DNA from: Modestobacter lapidis
GTDB lineage: Bacteria > Actinomycetota > Actinomycetes > Mycobacteriales > Geodermatophilaceae
DNA: 64,000 nt
Direction: 5' to 3'
Assembly: GCA_019779905.1 (NCBI GenBank)
Contig: JABAKE010000005.1
Span: forward strand, 1-64,000
Shown: positions 256 through 48,694 of the stretch, one piece after another
Numbering within the stretch: position 1 is the first letter of the stretch
Layout: every line of letters begins with the position of its first letter
Notes under the pieces: generated by a model
Databases searched by the model: none
What the model saw: only the letters and a program-made list of their open reading frames with translations
Told to the model about the DNA's origin: nothing
Program-made: the position numbers and the translations under genes

Positions 256-1671
256 TCACCCCGCCGTGACGTCGGTTCGCCCGGCCGTGTCGGTGGCCGC
301 GGCGGGAAGCCGCACCCGGAGCACCGTCTCGCCCGATCCGGTTTCGATGCTGATGTCGCCGCGGTGCCGGTCGACGATGCGCCGGGAGATGTCCAGACCC
401 AGGCCGGTGCCCTCGCCCACGCCCTTGGTCGTGTAGAAGGGGTCGAAGGCGTGTTCCCTGGTCTCCGGGGACATCCCCGGCCCGGTGTCGGCGATCTCCA
501 CGATCACCGAGCCCCTGCCGAGGCGTGTCGACACGCGCAGCGTCCCGCGGCCGTCCATCGCGTCGAGTGCGTTGGTGATGAGGTTGGTCCAGACCTGGTT
601 GAGCTCCGCGGCGAGGGCCTGGATGCGGGGCACGTCGGCGCCGTGGTCCCGCACCACGGTGACGCCCTTCGGGATCCGGTGCGCCAGCATGACCAGGGTG
701 CTCTCGAGACCTTCCGCCAGGTCGGTGGTCTGCATGGAGGCCCGGTCGAGTTGTGAGTAGGACTTCACCGCCGCGACCAGGTCGGAGATGCGCCGGGTGG
801 ATTCCTTGACCTCGTCCAGCAGGCCGGTCGCCGACAGCGTGTTCGCGACCCAGTCGAGAGCCGCCTCGAGCGGAGCAGCACCCATCGCCGCGGCGACCCG
901 CTCGCACCAGTCGACATCGGCTCCCGCCCCGGCCAGGACCGGAGCGAGCACCCAGTCCCGCGCCACGGCCTTGTCGGACAGCCAGTCCGACAGGGCATCC
1001 TCCCGATCCGCGAGACCCATGGAATCCATGATCGGGGCCCGGGGTCCCAGCTCACGGCGCAAGGTGTCGATCCGGCTGAACTGGTCGGCGCTGATCGGCA
1101 CCGCGGCGAGGCGCTGGAGTGAGGACAGCATCCCCTCGTGCGCGTCGCCGAGGGCGTCGACCGCCCGCGTCGCCGCGGCGGCGGGGTTGTTGAGCTCGTG
1201 GGCCAGCCCGGCCGCCAGGGTGCCGAGGGCGGCGAGCGCCTCCCGCTGTCGGGCCATCGACTCGTAGTTGCGAGCGGACCGTGAGACGCCCTCGATGAGG
1301 TAGAGGCCGAGCGGGAACCGGGCCGCCCACAGCCGTCGCAGGTCCTCGGCGGCCACCCGGAGGATGCGGCCGGCCGTCGCGGCCCGACCGGTCGCGAGGT
1401 AGGCCCCGTGCTCGTCCCACGCGCGGAACCCGCCGGCCCACCGTCCCGGCACGTCCATGACCCCGAGCTGCGTCTCGTCGCGTCCCACATGCCGCAGGAG
1501 GTCGATGCGCCCGTCGAGGAGAACCCACCAGAACCCGGCGCGATGGTTCTCCTGGAACAGGACGTCACCGCACTCGAAGGGCACCTCGGTGCCGGCTTCG
1601 ATCAGGGCCAGCAGTTGGTCGTCGCCGGTGCCGTCGAAGAGCCCGATCCGGCGCAGGTCGTGGAGTTCCAT
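256..1671 (-). CDS. Sensor histidine kinase with N-terminal cNMP-binding-like domain
   Basis: A 471-residue cytosolic kinase with no membrane segments. Residues about 10-115 resemble a CAP_ED/cyclic-nucleotide-binding beta-roll, but the phosphate-binding cassette is poor (GRAATAGR without the usual GE), so it may not bind a nucleotide. A HisKA-like segment with LAHELNNP places the phospho-acceptor at His158. The HATPase domain has an N box (NQVWTNLITNALDAM, about 358-372), a G1 box DTGPGM (395) and GTGLGL (422). The ATG at 1671 shares its A with the TGA of the upstream REC/TrxR gene, so the two are translationally coupled and probably form a signalling pair. A longer upstream frame merely reads through the neighbour. 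Confidence 0.9.
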   Translation of the reverse strand: MELHDLRRIGLFDGTGDDQLLALIEAGTEVPFECGDVLFQENHRAGFWWVLLDGRIDLLRHVGRDETQLGVMDVPGRWAGGFRAWDEHGAYLATGRAATAGRILRVAAEDLRRLWAARFPLGLYLIEGVSRSARNYESMARQREALAALGTLAAGLAHELNNPAAAATRAVDALGDAHEGMLSSLQRLAAVPISADQFSRIDTLRRELGPRAPIMDSMGLADREDALSDWLSDKAVARDWVLAPVLAGAGADVDWCERVAAAMGAAPLEAALDWVANTLSATGLLDEVKESTRRISDLVAAVKSYSQLDRASMQTTDLAEGLESTLVMLAHRIPKGVTVVRDHGADVPRIQALAAELNQVWTNLITNALDAMDGRGTLRVSTRLGRGSVIVEIADTGPGMSPETREHAFDPFYTTKGVGEGTGLGLDISRRIVDRHRGDISIETGSGETVLRVRLPAAATDTAGRTDVTAG

Positions 1672-3323
1672 CACGTCATCGCCAGGTAGCGGTGGACGAG
1701 GTAGACCGACATGGCTCCCTCTCCTACGGCCGAGGCCACCCGTTTCATCGAGTCCAGCCGGACGTCTCCGGCAGCGAAGACCCCGGGGACACTGGTCTCC
1801 AGCGTGAACGGCGGCCGTGCCTCGGCCCATGCAGTGGGGGACAGGCCCAGCAGGTCCTGCCCGGTGAGGATGAACCCTTTGGCGTCCCGGGCCACCTCAC
1901 CGCCCAGCCAGTCGGTGCGTGGTGACGCGCCGATGAAGACGAACAGCCAGTTGACGGCGACGTGCTCGCCCGCGCCGGAGTCGCGGTCGGTGAGCGTGAC
2001 GGCCTCCAGGTGGCCGTCGCCGCGTGCGTCGGTCACCTCGCTGCGCAGCCGTACCTCGATGTTGGCGGTGGCCTGGATCCGCGCTACGAGGTAGAGGGAC
2101 ATGCCTTCCTCGAGCGATGACCCGCGCACCACCAGGACAACGCGCCCGGCGTACTGCGCGAGGTTCAGGGCGGCCTGACCGGCCGAGTTGGCCGCGCCGA
2201 CGATGAGCACGTCGTCGCCCTTGCACTGGACCGCGTCGCTGGCGTTCGCGCCGTAGTAGACGCCGCGTCCGGTGAGCTCGGCCAGTCCCGACGCCTCCAG
2301 GCGACGGTAGGAGACCCCGGTGGACACGACGATCGCGCGCGCCTCCAGCTCGCCGGTGTCGAAGCAGACCGCCCGGACCGGGCCGCGTCGCTGCAGCGAC
2401 ACCACGTCGCGAGCCAGCAGCATCTCGGCGCCGAAGCGGCCCGCCTGCGCGACGGCACGCTGGGTGAGATCGGCGCCGGACAGCCCCCTGGGGAATCCGA
2501 GGTAGTTCTCGATAGAGGCGCTCTGCGCCGCCTGTCCTCCGGGCGCCTCGCGCTCCACCACCACGGTGCGCAACCCCTCCGAGGCGGCATAGACGGCGGC
2601 GGCCAGTCCGGCCGGGCCGGCGCCGACGATGCAGAGGTCGTAGAGGGGCTGGAGGGCACGGGTGCGCAGGCCGAGCGCAGCGGCGAGATCGAGGGTCGAC
2701 GGCGACCGCAGCACCTCCTTGTCGGGGACGAAGACCAGCGGGAGCTCGTCGACCTCCGCCTCGGCCAGTGCCTGCAGCCGATGCCCCTCGGTGTCGCGGT
2801 CGACGTCGACCCACCGATAGGGAACGTAGTTGCGGGTGAGGAAGGTCTTGATCTCGTGGCTCCGGTCCGACCAGCGGTGCCCGACCACCCGCACGTCATC
2901 GGTCTCCCGCGGGTGCGCCCGCTGCCAGTCGGCGAGCAGATCGTCGATGACGGGGTAGAGCCGCTCGGCCGGCGGGTCCCACGGCTTGACCAGGTAGTAG
3001 TCCAGCCCGATGTCGTTGATCGCCTTGATGGCGACGTCCGTGTCGGCGTAGGCGGTCAACAGCAGGAGCTTGGCCTCCGGGGCGTGGCGGCGGGCCTGCT
3101 CGAGCATCTCGGTCCCGGTCATCCCGGGCATCCGCTGGTCGGTCGCGATCAGCGCGACCGGGCGCAGCCGCAGGGCCAGCTCTTCCAGCGCGGCGAGGGC
3201 TTCGGCGCCGGACGACGCGCGGACGATCCGGTAGTCCGATCCGTACCGGGCCCGGAGGTCGCGGGTGATCGCCCGCAGCACCATCGGGTCGTCGTCCACG
3301 GTCACGATGGTCGCCTTGCTCAT
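1671..3323 (-). CDS. Response regulator receiver fused to thioredoxin-reductase-like FAD oxidoreductase
   Basis: A 550-residue fusion. Residues 1-135 are a receiver domain with acidic pocket (VDDD), phospho-acceptor Asp62 in ATDQRMPG and Lys113 in LVKPW. Residues about 140-222 resemble a glutaredoxin/thioredoxin-like spacer. Residues 228-550 are a class II pyridine nucleotide-disulphide oxidoreductase fold with the FAD loop GAGPAG (234), ENYLGFP, an NAD(P) loop GAANSAG (376) and a C-terminal GVFAAGDVR motif. The CxxC redox pair expected after GRGVYYGA is absent (NASDAVQC instead), so it is not an ordinary thioredoxin reductase. The start is set by AGGAGGT nine bases before the ATG. Flavin chemistry is probably controlled by phosphorylation from the coupled downstream kinase (inference). 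Confidence 0.9.
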   Translation of the reverse strand: MSKATIVTVDDDPMVLRAITRDLRARYGSDYRIVRASSGAEALAALEELALRLRPVALIATDQRMPGMTGTEMLEQARRHAPEAKLLLLTAYADTDVAIKAINDIGLDYYLVKPWDPPAERLYPVIDDLLADWQRAHPRETDDVRVVGHRWSDRSHEIKTFLTRNYVPYRWVDVDRDTEGHRLQALAEAEVDELPLVFVPDKEVLRSPSTLDLAAALGLRTRALQPLYDLCIVGAGPAGLAAAVYAASEGLRTVVVEREAPGGQAAQSASIENYLGFPRGLSGADLTQRAVAQAGRFGAEMLLARDVVSLQRRGPVRAVCFDTGELEARAIVVSTGVSYRRLEASGLAELTGRGVYYGANASDAVQCKGDDVLIVGAANSAGQAALNLAQYAGRVVLVVRGSSLEEGMSLYLVARIQATANIEVRLRSEVTDARGDGHLEAVTLTDRDSGAGEHVAVNWLFVFIGASPRTDWLGGEVARDAKGFILTGQDLLGLSPTAWAEARPPFTLETSVPGVFAAGDVRLDSMKRVASAVGEGAMSVYLVHRYLAMT

Positions 3324-3624
3324 GGGGCGGTACCTCCTGGCGGGCGCATGCACTGCAGGGTCAGTGCCGAGGCTCGTCCGCCGAGCCGTCGGTAGGCGCT
3401 ACCCGACGACCTGCTCGATCGCCCGCGCTGGCCGGCGTCATCGCTCTCCGGTAGGAGCCGAGGGATGGTGCCGCCATCCAAGCACGGACAGGACCGCCGG
3501 ATGGGTGCTCAGCGCACCCGGATTCCCTGCACCGACCGGCTGCCCGGGACCCGGGGCGGCGATCTCCCGGCGTGGTTCTACGGGCGGACCCGGAAGACGA
3601 CGCGGGCGCACCGCCCCGACTCGA
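3324..3624. other. Intergenic, no gene seen
   Basis: About 300 bases upstream of the REC/TrxR operon and downstream of the NTF2-like gene. It should hold the promoter of the REC/TrxR-kinase operon, but no convincing -35/-10 pair stands out. The open frames crossing it have no family resemblance. Confidence 0.5.
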
Positions 3625-41376: not shown

Positions 41377-43062
41377 TCAGTGCGAATCTCGTCGGCCCTC
41401 GGGGTCGGCTCGCGGTGGGTCCGCGTGCCGCTGCCGGTCGTCCGAGAGGTAGCCAGTGACGACTTGCTCGGCGGTGGAGGAGGTCGCGGAGAAGCCGGTG
41501 ATCGCCGACACGAACTGGTCCCCGCTGAGGGTGGCGAGTTCGGTGTCCTCGACGGCACGGACGGTTGCCGTCCGCGGGACCGCACGAAGCAGCGCGATCT
41601 CGCCGAAGGCGTCGCCGGGGCCCAGCCGGCGGATCTCGTGCCCGTCGTCGATCACGGCCACGCGTCCGGATTCGACGACGAAGAACCCGTCGGCCGGATC
41701 ACCCTTCCGGAACACATCGCGCTGCGCCGGCACACGCAACCTGCCCAGGCGCAGCGCCAGGCCCTCGATGGCCGGGACGGGCAGCAGGCGGAACATGCCG
41801 ACCCGGCGCAGTAGCACGATCCGGTCGCGCCGCACGCCGATGTCCGCGTCGATCGCCCGCAGCGCCGCCCAGCGAGCGGTGACCGCCACCGGCAGGCTGC
41901 CGCCGGTGGCGATGAGGGTGCCTGTGTCGCCCAGCGTGGAGAGGACGAGCGGGATCGCCAGCGAGCCCAGTGCCAGCGCCAGCGAGAACACCGCCTCGGT
42001 CAGGGCGAGCACACGCGCCAGCGTCTGGTCGGGGACGAGTCGCTGCAGCAGCGTGAACCCGCTGACGTCGACGAGCGCGTTGGCGGCGCCGATGACGACG
42101 AACGCGCCGACCGCCACGGGACTGCCCGTCAGCAAGCCGATGAGGACGATCGGCACGCCCCACATCGCGATCCCGGCACCGAACAACGTGCCGAGTCGGG
42201 CGCTGCCCGCCGCGCCGATCGAGGCCATGGCCGCGACGAAGCCGCCGACCCCGAACGCCGCCCAGAGGACCCCGACCCCCGGGCGACCCAGGTCGGTGAC
42301 CTCCACGGCGACCACCACCACCAGCACGGTCAGCGCGCCGCGGACCAGGCACTGCGCGCCGCCCAGGACGATCACGTCCAGCGCCCGTGGGCGTCGTCGC
42401 AGTTCGCGCAGCCCCTCGACCACGTCGGAGACCGCCCCCACCCGGTCGGCCGGCCTGTCGGCTGCGGCAGGGCGCGGCGATTCGTAGCGCAGTCGGGCAG
42501 CCAGCGCGCCGGCAGCACCGGAGAGCAGGGCGACCGCGGCGAACGCGGCTGCCGCGTCGTACCCCGCGAGCAGCGCGGCCGCGGCCAGGGGACCGATGAG
42601 CGCGGCCGCACCGTCGAGGATGGCCCGGACCGCGTTCACCGCGGTGAGCTCCTCCGGCCTGGTGCACAGCGTGGGGAACAGGGCCGCGAGCACCGGCCGG
42701 TAGGCGGCATGGCAGACCGTCGAGAGCGTCAGCAACGCATACACCACCGCCGGCTGATCGACGGCCACCGCGGCCCCCGCCGCGGTGACCGCTCGGAGCG
42801 CGCACGCGATCACGAGCAGCTGCCGGCGCGAGACCCGGTCGGCCAGCGCGCCCAACCAGGGGAGCGCGAGCGTCGCCGGCAGCACCCGGAGGAACCCGAC
42901 CAGGCCCACGCCCGCCGCGCCGCCCTGGTCGAACGCGTACACCGTCATCGCGGACAGGAACAGGAACTCGCCGGTCCAGGCCGACAGCGACGACACCTGC
43001 GCGAGCCGGAGGTTGCGATTGCGCGCCACCGATGCCCACGCCTCGCGGTAGGACCCCGGCAC
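41377..43062 (-). CDS. MFS transporter with C-terminal cyclic-nucleotide-binding domain
   Basis: 561 residues from a GTG at 43062; the longer frame upstream crosses the divergent promoter. Residues about 15-410 form an MFS domain of 10-12 helices with the loop-2 motif GALADRVSRRQ. Residues about 430-535 are a CAP_ED beta-roll with RKGDPADGFFVVESGRVAVI and a phosphate-binding cassette FGEIALLRAVPRTATVRA, which keeps the Glu and Arg used for cNMP binding. Export or import would thus be gated by cAMP or cGMP (inference). The gene is divergent from a deacetylase that also carries a cNMP domain. Confidence 0.88.
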   Translation of the reverse strand: MPGSYREAWASVARNRNLRLAQVSSLSAWTGEFLFLSAMTVYAFDQGGAAGVGLVGFLRVLPATLALPWLGALADRVSRRQLLVIACALRAVTAAGAAVAVDQPAVVYALLTLSTVCHAAYRPVLAALFPTLCTRPEELTAVNAVRAILDGAAALIGPLAAAALLAGYDAAAAFAAVALLSGAAGALAARLRYESPRPAAADRPADRVGAVSDVVEGLRELRRRPRALDVIVLGGAQCLVRGALTVLVVVVAVEVTDLGRPGVGVLWAAFGVGGFVAAMASIGAAGSARLGTLFGAGIAMWGVPIVLIGLLTGSPVAVGAFVVIGAANALVDVSGFTLLQRLVPDQTLARVLALTEAVFSLALALGSLAIPLVLSTLGDTGTLIATGGSLPVAVTARWAALRAIDADIGVRRDRIVLLRRVGMFRLLPVPAIEGLALRLGRLRVPAQRDVFRKGDPADGFFVVESGRVAVIDDGHEIRRLGPGDAFGEIALLRAVPRTATVRAVEDTELATLSGDQFVSAITGFSATSSTAEQVVTGYLSDDRQRHADPPRADPEGRRDSH

Positions 43063-43256
43063 GGCGCGGACGCTAACAGGGAAGTCGCTACGGGTACGTC
43101 GAGTCGGACGTGGCCTCTGCGGTCGGTGTGCGCGACGGAAATGCTGGCTCGCGCGCTCCGCGGGACGGTACGGTGCGCGCTCGACCGGCCGGCCGGCCCA
43201 CAGGTCCATCCTCAGGTGCCGGCGGCAGCCTCGACGGTGATCGGTGGGCGTACGAC
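43063..43256. promoter_or_regulatory. Divergent promoter between the two cNMP-domain genes
   Basis: On the minus strand TAGCGT (43075-43070) lies seven bases before the GTG of the transporter gene, giving a probable leaderless transcript. The same box precedes the SEC-C gene at 49878. No clear operator palindrome was seen for the deacetylase side, and no CRP consensus (TGTGA-N6-TCACA) is present. Confidence 0.45.
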
Positions 43257-44426
43257 ATGTCTGTGGATCCCGCCGGTCGGAGGGCTCGGCGTCTGTTGGG
43301 GATCTTCGCCCATCCCGACGACGAGACCATCTGCGCCGGCGGCACGCTCGCCAAGTTCGCGGGCTCCGGCGCCGACGTCGGGGTCGTCTCGCTCACCCGC
43401 GGTGGAGCGGGCCAGATCAGGGACGCCGGCGTCGCCACCCGGGCCACCCTGCGGGGGGTGCGGGAGCGGGAACTCGAGGCGGCCGGCAAGGAGCTCGGGC
43501 TCAGCCTGACGAGGTGTCTCGACCACCCGGACGGCGGCCTCTCCGGGGTCGACGGTGCGACCCTGCTCGAGCAGGTGTCGGCGCTCATCACCGAGTTCGA
43601 GCCCGACGTGGTGATCACGTTCGGGCCCGACGGGTTCTCCGGTCACCCCGACCACGTGGCCGTGGGAGCCGCGGTGACCGAGGCCTGCTACCGGCTGCGG
43701 TCGGCCACGTCGCCCCGGCTCTTCCACTGTCACCTGCCGCGCAGTGGGATGCTGCTGCGCGACCGGCTGGCCGCGTGGGTGGTGGAGCTGACGACCCGCT
43801 TCAAGGGGACCAGGGAGTTCGTCCGCGCCCTGTCGGTCTTCTCGCGCGAGACGGCGGCGCTGGGATACGCGGCCGACTTCGTGAACGTCGAGTGGTTCCC
43901 GGCCGGCTCCTACCTCATCGAGCAGGGTGAGGAGGCCACGATGATGCACTTCCTCCTGTCCGGTTCCGTGGAGATCCGACGAGAGGGTGCGGACGGTCGC
44001 GTGCGGGTCGTCGACCGGTCGGGTCCGGGTGAGTTCATCGGGGAGGAAGGCATCGCCACAGGCCGGCCGCGCAACGCGCACGTGGTGGCCCTCGACGACG
44101 TCACGAGCCTGACGTTCCTGGCGTCCGACCGCTTCGTCGCCGACGTGCACGGGGGCCAGGCGCTCCCGATGCTGACGCGGACGCTGCCCTCGGGGGATCG
44201 GGTCGACGCCAGGGTGAGCACGTGCATCGACGTCTCGGATTTCGTCGGCCACAAGATCCGGGCGACTGCTGCACATCGCTCCCAGTACCCGATCGATCCG
44301 ACGATGTTTCCGGACTCGATCCTCCGGGAGATGTTCGGCGTGGAGTACTTCATCCAGGTCCTGCCCGAGCGGGAGCTGGAGCCGTCGCTGTTCGACGACG
44401 ACGCCTCAGCCGGCGGAGGCGAGTGA
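43257..44426 (+). CDS. PIG-L/LmbE-family deacetylase with an inserted cyclic-nucleotide-binding domain
   Basis: 389 residues from ATG 43257. Residues 13-210 are the N-terminal part of a PIG-L deacetylase: zinc motif AHPDDE (18-23), ARG loop LTRGGAGQIRD and the second zinc motif GHPDHV (129-134). Residues about 212-295 are a CAP_ED domain (SYLIEQGEEATMMHFLLSG; cassette IGEEGIATGRPRNAHV). Residues about 323-370 resume the PIG-L fold, with DVSDFVGHKIRATAAHRSQY and FGVEYFIQV. PIG-L enzymes remove N-acetyl groups from GlcNAc-type substrates such as mycothiol precursors. The insertion suggests allosteric control by cNMP. Confidence 0.88.
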   Translation: MSVDPAGRRARRLLGIFAHPDDETICAGGTLAKFAGSGADVGVVSLTRGGAGQIRDAGVATRATLRGVRERELEAAGKELGLSLTRCLDHPDGGLSGVDGATLLEQVSALITEFEPDVVITFGPDGFSGHPDHVAVGAAVTEACYRLRSATSPRLFHCHLPRSGMLLRDRLAAWVVELTTRFKGTREFVRALSVFSRETAALGYAADFVNVEWFPAGSYLIEQGEEATMMHFLLSGSVEIRREGADGRVRVVDRSGPGEFIGEEGIATGRPRNAHVVALDDVTSLTFLASDRFVADVHGGQALPMLTRTLPSGDRVDARVSTCIDVSDFVGHKIRATAAHRSQYPIDPTMFPDSILREMFGVEYFIQVLPERELEPSLFDDDASAGGGE

Positions 44427-45125
44427 CCGTGGGCGTCGGCGGGGGAGGATGTGCGGGAGGCCCCGGCCGACCATGTCGAAGGTGGCGCCGATGCGCAGGA
44501 GCAACGAGGGCTCCGGCGCGGGTGCGAGCGTCGCGGTGATGTCCTGGACGTCGACGTAGAAGGTCTGCACCCGTCCGATGCCCTCGAGGTCCTGCGCGAT
44601 CTCGTGGGCCGTCAGTCCGGCGGAGGTGGCGCCACCGTCGCGGAAGAGGTCGTCGGTGACCAGGAGGTACTCCGGCACCGTCACGGGGTTCTTGAGCAGG
44701 CGGTGGACGTAGATCACGTCCATACCGACGAGCTTCTTCCGGCGCCTGATCGTCTGGGTCGCGACGTCCCCGACGTGCGCCACGAACTTGAGCTTCAGGG
44801 CGCCGGTCTGCGTGCAGCTTCCGCAGGGACACATGTTGAGCTCGATCAGCCGGCGCTGCGCATGGAAGGCGCGGTGCATGGCGACGGCCGCACGGGTGGC
44901 GGCGGACAGCGTCGCGGCGCCGTCCAGCCCGTCGGTGTCGCACGAGAGGAAGGCCGCGTCGCCCTCGATCTCGATCAGCTCGAAGTCCCGTGCGGCGTCG
45001 ACGATCTTGTCGAGCAGGCGTCTCGTGGCCGCCTCCGCGTGCCCCAGCATGCTGCGGTGGAACTGCATGTACTCCGTGTAGCCGCCGATGTCGGCGATCA
45101 GCAGCAACGCACGCCGGGTGGCCAT
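44406..45125 (-). CDS. Class III nucleotidyl cyclase-like protein, DUF2652 type
   Basis: 239 residues. Both metal-binding aspartates of class III cyclases are in place: Asp12 in LIADIGGYTEYM and Asp56 in IEIEGDAAFL. A later block LKFVAHVGDV...GMDVIYVHRLLKN parallels the cyclase core, with a Cys-rich CPCGSC insertion before it. Canonical purine-selecting Lys/Asp and the transition-state Arg cannot be identified, so activity is uncertain. The 3' end overlaps the deacetylase gene by 21 bases on the opposite strand, and two cNMP-binding proteins are adjacent. Confidence 0.78.
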   Translation of the reverse strand: MATRRALLLIADIGGYTEYMQFHRSMLGHAEAATRRLLDKIVDAARDFELIEIEGDAAFLSCDTDGLDGAATLSAATRAAVAMHRAFHAQRRLIELNMCPCGSCTQTGALKLKFVAHVGDVATQTIRRRKKLVGMDVIYVHRLLKNPVTVPEYLLVTDDLFRDGGATSAGLTAHEIAQDLEGIGRVQTFYVDVQDITATLAPAPEPSLLLRIGATFDMVGRGLPHILPRRRPRSLASAG

Positions 45126-45216: not shown

Positions 45217-45489
45217 TCAGCCGTAGGCGTCGGCGCGGTGCGAGATCCGGACGACGCGGACCAGAACCTCGTCCCCGTGGATGGAGTAGATGACGCGGTA
45301 TTGACCGCGTCGAGCCGACCAGTAGCCCTCGAGCTGGAACCGCAGCGGCTTGCCGACGCGGCGTGGGTTCTCGGCCAGCGGGCCGTAGAGGAAGTCGACG
45401 ACCGCCACTGCCACCGATTCCGGGAGGTCCTGTCCGATCGCTCGCTGGGCGCCGGCGGACAGAACGACGGTGTACCTCCCGTCGCTCAT
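45217..45489 (-). CDS. RelE/ParE-type toxin
   Basis: 90 residues. RYTVVLSAGAQRAIGQDLPESV, then GPLAENPRRVGKPLRFQLEGYWSARRGQYRVIYSI and VLVRVVRISHRADAY are the complete RelE superfamily pattern, with the catalytic-face Arg/Tyr/His residues towards the C-terminus. It would cleave mRNA at the ribosome. Its ATG overlaps the antitoxin stop (ATGA), with the antitoxin upstream. Confidence 0.92.
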   Translation of the reverse strand: MSDGRYTVVLSAGAQRAIGQDLPESVAVAVVDFLYGPLAENPRRVGKPLRFQLEGYWSARRGQYRVIYSIHGDEVLVRVVRISHRADAYG

Positions 45490-45764
45490 GGGCGGCGGCG
45501 GTTGGCGAGCGCCGCCCGTACCTGCTCTTCGCTGTATGCCCGGCCCTGAGCCATCTGCTGTTCGGCCTCGCGAATCTCCGGGACTGCGTGGCGGTCCGAG
45601 AGGATCCCCAGCGTTTCCATCAGTGACTCGTAGTCATCGACGGCGAGGATGACGGCGACCGGACTGCCGTTCTTGGTCACAGTGACGCGTTCATGGGTAC
45701 CGGCGACGTCGTCGATCACCTGGCTGAAGCGAGCCTTGACCGCCGCGAGGGACAGCGTCGTCAT
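45486..45764 (-). CDS. Phd/YefM-type antitoxin
   Basis: 92 residues starting TTLSLAAVKARFSQVIDDV, the Phd/YefM DNA-binding fold, followed by VTVTKNGSPVAVILAVDDYESLMETLGIL and a Gln/Glu-rich toxin-binding tail. It precedes and overlaps the RelE toxin gene. Two inverted repeats near its start could be its own operator. Confidence 0.92.
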   Translation of the reverse strand: MTTLSLAAVKARFSQVIDDVAGTHERVTVTKNGSPVAVILAVDDYESLMETLGILSDRHAVPEIREAEQQMAQGRAYSEEQVRAALANRRRP

Positions 45765-45775
45765 GACTAGAATTG

Positions 45776-47710: not shown

Positions 47711-48005
47711 GACTCCGTACTGGCGCGAGATCTACGTCGCAAGGCAGAGGTGCGAAGGCGGTATCCCGCAGAGGGGTCAGTGACCGGAGGCGATCGGCTC
47801 CTGGTTGCCGGCCACGGCGCGGTACTTCTGCCGGCCGGCTTTGCCGCTGGTCGCGACCGCCTCGTCGATGCAATCCCACGGGACGCCGGCCTTCCCGGCA
47901 GCGGCAGCGGCCTCACCGAGGTCGCCCAGGGCACACCGCAGAGCAGCGGCTCGCACCGCTGTCTCTTCCCTGGAGACGGACAGCCGGAGGCAGAACCGAC
48001 CACAA
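47711..48005. other. Region before the second PIN module, no gene supported
   Basis: About 295 bases without a convincing gene. A minus-strand frame encoding DLGEAAAAAGKAGVPWDCID looks protein-like but has no family match, RBS or homologous neighbour. Confidence 0.35.
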
Positions 48006-48024
48006 GATATCAAGACATGATATC
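48006..48024. promoter_or_regulatory. Operator/promoter of the second PIN toxin-antitoxin pair
   Basis: GATATCA-AGACA-TGATATC is a perfect 7-base inverted repeat in the most AT-rich spot of the region. It overlaps a TATCCT -10 box (48021-48026). The antitoxin starts at 48061, with GGAGG about ten bases upstream of it. Confidence 0.65.
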
Positions 48025-48060
48025 CTACTCAGTCGACAACTGCAGCGGAGGGGCAAGAGC

Positions 48061-48273
48061 ATGGCCAAGACACTGGTCGACATCCCTGAGGACAAGCTTG
48101 CCCGAGCGCAGGCGCGGCTCGGCACGGCTACGAAGCGGGAGACCGTTGAGCGTGCGCTGGATCTGGTGCTGCACCAGGCCGAGCAGCGCGACCTCATCAT
48201 GGCGGTGGCAGCGGGACAGGTTTCGCCGCACTTCACTCCGGAGGCACTGGCCGAGGTCAGGCCGGGTGCCTGA
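48061..48273 (+). CDS. VapB-type antitoxin (DUF2191-like)
   Basis: 70 residues. AKTLVDIPEDKLARAQARLGTATKRETVERALDLVL is the ribbon-helix-helix of VapB antitoxins, followed by an acidic/aromatic tail (VSPHFTPEALAEV). GGAGG lies ten bases before the ATG. The toxin gene starts eight bases before this gene ends. Confidence 0.88.
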   Translation: MAKTLVDIPEDKLARAQARLGTATKRETVERALDLVLHQAEQRDLIMAVAAGQVSPHFTPEALAEVRPGA

Positions 48274-48694
48274 GGCGATCCTCGACAACTCCGCGTATGC
48301 CCGCCTGGCTCGGCACGCCTCGGTCCGGGAGGCCGTCCTCGACTACCTGAACGGCCCACTCAACAGCCTCCGGTCAGTGCTGGTGCAGCGGTTGGAAATC
48401 TGCACCTCAGTGCGGAACGTGGCGGAGTTCGACGCCGAGATGCAGGCCCTTGCCGCGATGCCGCTGCTGGAGGACGCGCTTCCCGCTGTCGGCGCTGCGG
48501 CGCAGTCACTGCAGCGGGCGCTCGTGCAGCGCGGCACCCACCGTGGGCCGAAGGTGGTGGACTTGCTCATCGCTGCCACCGCACTCGTGCACGATGCGGA
48601 GATCCTCCACTACGACGGCGACTACGACCTGCTTGCTGCCGCCGAGCCGAGGCTGCGGACCCGGTGGATCGTGCCGCGGGGGAGCGTGGCGTAG
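48266..48694 (+). CDS. VapC-type PIN-domain toxin
   Basis: 142 residues from a GTG overlapping the antitoxin. The first acidic residue lies in EAILDNSAYARL, the Glu in LEICTSVRN, and the later acidic residues in PKVVDLLIAATA and HYDGDYDLLAAAEP, matching the PIN cluster. It ends TRWIVPRGSVA, a tail also seen in the third pair (HRWVMPRGTA). Expected activity is endoribonuclease on tRNA or rRNA. Confidence 0.88.
   Translation: MPEAILDNSAYARLARHASVREAVLDYLNGPLNSLRSVLVQRLEICTSVRNVAEFDAEMQALAAMPLLEDALPAVGAAAQSLQRALVQRGTHRGPKVVDLLIAATALVHDAEILHYDGDYDLLAAAEPRLRTRWIVPRGSVA

Follow-up and report, generated by a model that had tools for sequence, protein, structure and literature searches.

The uninterrupted open reading frame at 43257..44426 (+) of the 64-kb window (the whole stretch of DNA analysed) encodes a protein of 389 residues, P0001, which sequence profiles and a predicted structure confirmed to be a single PIG-L deacetylase interrupted by a cyclic-nucleotide-binding (CNB) domain, with the C-terminal ~60 residues belonging to the deacetylase. 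The gene lies beside a gene for a cyclase-like protein and one for a transporter fused to a sensor of the same kind. This arrangement suggests an enzyme that is switched directly by a second messenger.

The ATG start codon of P0001 is the same as in homologues L006-L009. Two Pfam models match the protein well above their cut-offs: PIG-L (PF02585) at residues 16-144 (E 2e-32, 112.7 bits against a cut-off of 28.2) and cNMP_binding (PF00027) at residues 212-287 (E 2e-18, 66.8 bits against 27.5). The N-terminal part of the deacetylase (43287..43754 (+), residues 11-166) contains the zinc/catalytic motifs AHPDDE (43308..43325 (+), residues 18-23) and GHPDH (43641..43655 (+), residues 129-133, or 129-134 as GHPDHV), the roles of whose zinc-site residues we assume to be those known from MshB. 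The inserted segment (43794..44198 (+), about residues 180-314) comprises a helix, the CNB beta-barrel (43878..44123 (+), residues 208-289) and a weakly conserved linker, and is lacking in uninterrupted relatives; within the barrel, the phosphate-binding cassette (44028..44090 (+), residues 258-278) has both Glu263 and Arg272. The C-terminal part of the deacetylase (44199..44375 (+), residues 315-373) includes KIRATAAHRSQY at residues 333-344 and FGVEYFIQV at residues 360-368. The original prediction had named AHPDDE, GHPDHV and these last two motifs, and all four were found in P0001 where it had placed them.

Among solved structures, the front part of P0001 is closest in sequence to MshB, and its middle to cGMP-dependent kinases, CRP-type regulators and the acetyltransferase Pat. 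P0001 is a member of the PIG-L fold by all sequence and structure features tested, and of the CNB superfamily by its beta-barrel fold and cassette. Judged by its sequence, it does not pass for a housekeeping MshB or Mca: assignment as an MshB, Mca or BshB equivalog was rejected, every NCBIfam cut-off being missed (bits/cut-off: BshB2 103/195, MshB 80/224, BshB1 78/182.5, Mca 69/277). Elsewhere the source genome encodes one protein that we take, from its motifs, to be MshB-like and another that we likewise take to be Mca-like.

Because the Pfam PIG-L model ends at residue 144, the C-terminal part of P0001 was tested separately. A plain PIG-L profile was made from 76 uninterrupted homologues found via the N-terminal part of P0001 (81 were found and 5 dropped, one being broken, two cut by contig ends and two longer than 300 residues). 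This profile matched P0001 twice: profile positions 1-157 align with residues 11-166, and profile positions 177-237 with residues 315-373. Residues 296-389 alone scored 32.2 bits; of 300 shuffles of this piece, 205 scored at all, none above 2.6 bits. The equivalent piece of 23 nested proteins scored between 28 and 41 bits. The gap between the two PIG-L parts amounts to 148 residues in P0001 versus 0-30 residues (median 21.5) in the uninterrupted proteins, and alignment with five plain relatives and with the MshB-like protein that the source genome encodes delimited the insert to about residues 180-318.

For structure prediction, AlphaFold2 was given 23 full-length nested sequences only; plain relatives were left out of the alignment so that the answer would not be forced. 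The resulting model (mean pLDDT 74, pTM 0.71) has both PIG-L parts folding together, as the original prediction had proposed to examine by this means. Its C-terminal strand-helix-helix-strand (residues 322-369) is mostly confident, and weaker at residues 341-350. Superposition with VIA-align matched model residues 8-374 to MshB (Z 21.9, 234 residues, rmsd 3.4) and residues 207-298 to CRP-type CNB domains, with matches to the CNB domains of CRP, GlxR and PKA-R (Z ~13). The C-terminal helix (K..A...H.SQ) and strand (EYF), predicted to pack against the PIG-L core as in MshB, were recovered by predicted structure, profile and alignment alike. The end of the Pfam model at residue 144 would also suit a sensor that is simply appended, in which only the first 145 residues were deacetylase and the C-terminal 70 residues were part of the CNB module. 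We consider this arrangement extremely improbable, as the profile, the structure match, the gap lengths and the alignment all put residues 315-373 in the deacetylase. Thus, the plain-profile match and the MshB alignment place the C-terminal 70 residues outside the CNB domain, and the original claim that the sensor is nested rather than appended was borne out by the profile and the MshB structure match.

Full-length nested homologues occur in many genera; hence the architecture is due neither to chance nor to misassembly, and both origins were rejected. A scan of public genomes together with genome searches yielded at least 31 intact nested proteins, at least 22 from Actinomycetota and at least 9 from Chloroflexota. 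Among the matches listed, the actinobacterial members come from Geodermatophilus, Blastococcus, Kribbella, Mycobacterium and Rhodococcoides, and also from metagenome-assembled genomes. The gene was present in 11 of 112 Geodermatophilaceae genomes (E <1e-190), with one further, interrupted copy in G074, in 2 of 396 sampled Actinomycetota genomes (the source genome counted in) and in 9 of 400 sampled Chloroflexota genomes. None of the 84 plasmid records with a match held a relative covering at least 80% of P0001. Zinc-site residues H19, D21, D22, H130, D132 and H133 are identical in all 31 collected nested proteins. A tree of the PIG-L parts of the nested and the 76 plain proteins needs two changes of state as opposed to one, since two plain proteins on very long branches are placed within the nested ones; a single origin of the nested architecture is neither excluded nor proven. 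Two nested homologues, L024 5986-6762 (Mycobacterium gastri) and L096 1268-1992 (the G074 copy), are frame-broken and represent either pseudogenes or sequence errors.

The gene at 41377..43209 (-), divergent from the nested gene, encodes an MFS transporter carrying a CNB domain at its C-terminus (41503-41736), identified by Pfam, by the CNB scan of the genome and by its linkage; its MFS part matches H+ antiporters and the enterobactin exporter EntS, all below cut-off. On the other side, at 44406..45125 (-), lies a gene for a DUF2652 protein (PF10851) whose 3' end overlaps that of the nested gene. Gene order at this locus is therefore MFS(-)/PIG-L(+)/DUF2652(-). Next to the DUF2652 gene, 45217-45489 (-) and 45489-45767 (-) encode a ParE-like toxin and Phd/YefM antitoxin pair; a second toxin-antitoxin pair consists of a VapB-like antitoxin (48001-48270 (+)) followed by a weak PIN-domain match (48257-48691 (+)).

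The linkage was surveyed at 22 actinobacterial loci, with uneven flanks of about 3-9 kb. DUF2652 was found at 16 of them (split over two frames in L016), a full MFS-CNB gene at 14 and a further stand-alone CNB protein at 8. At least one of the three was present at 19 loci, the exceptions being L015, L021 and L175. Gene order varies: two Kribbella loci (L010, L011) have a three-gene tandem of MFS, DUF2652 and PIG-L, and in the tandem of L019 the order is MFS, PIG-L, DUF2652. Further CNB-only proteins are encoded at L011 5474-6052, L012 7672-8751 and L016 2490-3056, in some cases with a cysteine-synthase-like gene in between; a cysteine-synthase-like PLP enzyme adjoins the nested gene in L010, L016, L020 and L022, always scoring below the equivalog cut-offs.

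The association was also examined over whole genomes. Of the 112 Geodermatophilaceae genomes, 21 carry DUF2652, 20 carry MFS-CNB and 11 carry the nested gene. Each of the 20 MFS-CNB genomes belongs to the 21 with DUF2652 (hypergeometric p 3e-21, relatedness ignored), and every nested-gene genome has DUF2652 (11/11; hypergeometric p 7e-10, relatedness again ignored) as well as MFS-CNB (11/11). DUF2652 and the nested gene are at most about 2.2 kb apart in nine of these 11 genomes, and in seven the nested gene adjoins both partners; in L179 and L180, from genomes without the nested gene, DUF2652 and MFS-CNB stand in direct tandem. DUF2652 is otherwise rare, being present in 16 of 392 sampled Actinomycetota genomes. 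It was found in 18 of the 21 nested-gene genomes searched, a set that excludes those of L006 and L013; G251, G517 and G522 gave no match. In G251 (L115) the cassette is intact, yet DUF2652 was not found.

Chloroflexota gave a different result. DUF2652 was present in none of the nine fetched stretches around their nested genes, and linkage at L023 was rejected, the DUF2652 gene of that genome being on another contig. Co-occurrence was not enriched at genome level either (DUF2652 in 2 of 9 nested-gene genomes versus 41 of 400, p 0.23, the two samples of 400 being taken as the same draw). Since DUF2652 shows no association there, the nested enzyme exists in Chloroflexota without the DUF2652 partner.

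Kinship of DUF2652 with class III cyclases was published in 2016 (PMC4886424), and several lines of evidence place the window neighbour in this fold. Its predicted structure, obtained with 8 sequences (pLDDT 76), has a class III cyclase fold and matches CyaC 1wc1 with Z 18.8 (rmsd 2.5, 181 residues). A PDB sequence search with the DUF2652 profile returned no match; comparison with a profile of 21 cyclase domains from related genomes gave E 1e-5 and a probability of 82%. In this profile comparison, E52 and K131 fall on the purine-specifying pair, D12 and D56 on the metal-binding Asp residues, and R142 and I138 take the positions of the transition-state Arg and Asn, respectively; we assume these positions to have the roles that they have in cyclases. 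D12, D56 and Arg142 were present in 19 of 19 DUF2652 proteins, and the purine pair reads E/K in 17 and K/E in 2. The transition-state Asn is missing, with Ile138 in its place in all 19. The roles so assigned agree with PMC4886424, which classes members having E,K with H,R as guanylyl cyclases, a 239-residue protein of Modestobacter marinus included.

The nested enzyme could be controlled by a cyclic nucleotide whose source is the ordinary class III cyclase of the genome, with DUF2652 as an inactive or sensing relative. This would fit the Ile found in 19 of 19 proteins, the single class III cyclase gene (PF00211) that the source genome carries on another contig, and the three genomes (G251 and those of L017 and L022, the latter two metagenome-assembled) in which the nested gene occurs with no DUF2652 match. 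It sits poorly with the invariance of both metal-binding Asp residues and the Arg (19/19), and with the swap of the E/K pair to K/E in the other two proteins, as expected for a working site; moreover, PMC4886424 notes that established cyclases without the Asn exist. On balance, we regard an outside source as unlikely, albeit well short of negligible, and favour DUF2652 as the likelier source of the nucleotide in Actinomycetota.

Conservation of the cassette bears on whether the inserted domain senses a cyclic nucleotide. Among the 31 collected nested proteins, the Glu is kept in 28, the Arg in 24 and both in 24; the pair is present in 21 of 22 actinobacterial members, L016 having Ser at the Arg position despite its linkage to DUF2652 and MFS-CNB. 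The Arg is replaced by His or Gln in 6 of 9 Chloroflexota proteins (L183, L167, L184, L185, L186 and L187), three of which also have Ala for Glu; the zinc site is kept in all six. These losses speak against a sensor role in every member of the family, and the Chloroflexota proteins lacking the Arg possibly reflect a change of ligand or a loss of sensing. DUF2652 was present in two of three Chloroflexota cases with an intact cassette, compared with none of six cases without an intact cassette (p 0.083), numbers too small to use. The canonical C-terminal lid/hinge helices of CNB domains were not seen in P0001, where residues 289-304 have pLDDT <50 in the AlphaFold2 model; after the barrel, the 31 nested proteins have a linker of variable length (19-41 residues) in place of a conserved lid helix.

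Such features might mean that the nested fold is no cyclic-nucleotide switch at all, serving instead to bind some other small ligand or as a dimerisation or partner-docking module. The cassette losses (Arg in 7 of 31 proteins, Glu in 3 of 31) with an unchanged zinc site and the apparent lack of hinge helices are in line with such a role, as is the presence among the structural neighbours of the CNB domain of FNR and NtcA, which have ligands other than cyclic nucleotides. We nevertheless think it rather improbable, though a serious contender, given that 21 of 22 actinobacterial members have both Glu263 and Arg272 and that the gene in this group is next to one for a predicted cyclase and one for a further CNB protein.

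A scan of the source genome revealed five CNB domains above cut-off, three of them inside the window (1324-1584, 41503-41736 and 43890-44117). The third CNB protein of the window, at 259-1830 (-), is a fusion to a histidine-kinase-type ATPase and adjoins a response-regulator/FAD-reductase fusion at 1674-3353 (-).

The following sequence of events could account for these observations. An ancestral PIG-L (LmbE-type) zinc deacetylase would have acquired its CNB domain in a loop of variable length, which connects the helix at residues 167-178 to the strand (residues 322-325) opening the C-terminal part, and the two enzyme halves, by profile match and model, would fold together round the insert. 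Joined to the enzyme at both ends, the CNB domain most likely binds a cyclic nucleotide, and this binding may reshape the catalytic cleft or change how far it opens. Were the domain to act as a switch, its signal would have to travel through the two connections to the enzyme, namely the helices that precede the barrel and the linker that follows it. Direct allosteric control of the deacetylase by the CNB domain is a plausible hypothesis. In Actinomycetota, to go by the gene linkage, the signal would most likely come from the neighbouring DUF2652 protein and might be cGMP. It may also act on the neighbouring MFS-CNB transporter, in which case export and a deacetylation or amide-cleavage reaction would be switched together. 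One economical proposal is that the enzyme cuts a sugar amide, as part of detoxification or of a natural-product pathway, and that the transporter exports what is formed. A CNB-gated nested deacetylase, with the nucleotide supplied by DUF2652 and the MFS-CNB transporter gated together with it, is the best explanation at hand, and we would give it an even chance of being right. Somewhat below that we place the fuller proposal of a self-contained module, in which DUF2652 makes cGMP or another cyclic nucleotide and the gated deacetylase and MFS exporter act together without transcription.

Several known systems share part of this design. MshB, the GlcNAc-Ins deacetylase of the PIG-L family, resembles P0001 in its fold over both halves, its zinc-site motifs and its C-terminal helix and strand, but has no CNB insert. 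The mycobacterial acetyltransferase Pat (CNB-GNAT), to which the CNB part of P0001 shows a sequence match, combines a CNB domain and an enzyme of acyl chemistry in one chain. In Pat the domain, which controls the enzyme of the same chain, is appended at one end of a transferase, whereas in P0001 it is placed inside a hydrolase. Family 2B encapsulins, as described in PMC8346489, have an internal CNB domain with a predicted disordered linker after it, as does P0001 in its arrangement of barrel and linker; their host fold is an HK97 shell protein and no enzyme. As for the DUF2652 cyclase-like family, of which the window neighbour is a member, PMC4886424 already lists the CNB-domain proteins Rv2564 and Rv2565 as neighbours of the M. 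tuberculosis DUF2652 gene Rv2561; its main text makes no mention of PIG-L, LmbE or MFS. No published PIG-L/CNB protein was found in open-access PMC full text, in agreement with the original prediction, whose author knew of no described example.

PIG-L deacetylases take part in the synthesis and breakdown of mycothiol, bacillithiol, GPI anchors and antibiotics, and we know of no zinc sugar-deacetylase-type enzyme under direct cyclic-nucleotide control. If the proposed switch is true, P0001 would be the first such enzyme. A catalytic fold built round a second-messenger sensor would also offer a simple, purifiable system for the control of enzymes by inserted domains. Finally, the linkage would give the DUF2652 cyclase-like family a physiological setting and would tie this family, which is present in M. 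tuberculosis, to named effectors, making its product and purpose directly testable.
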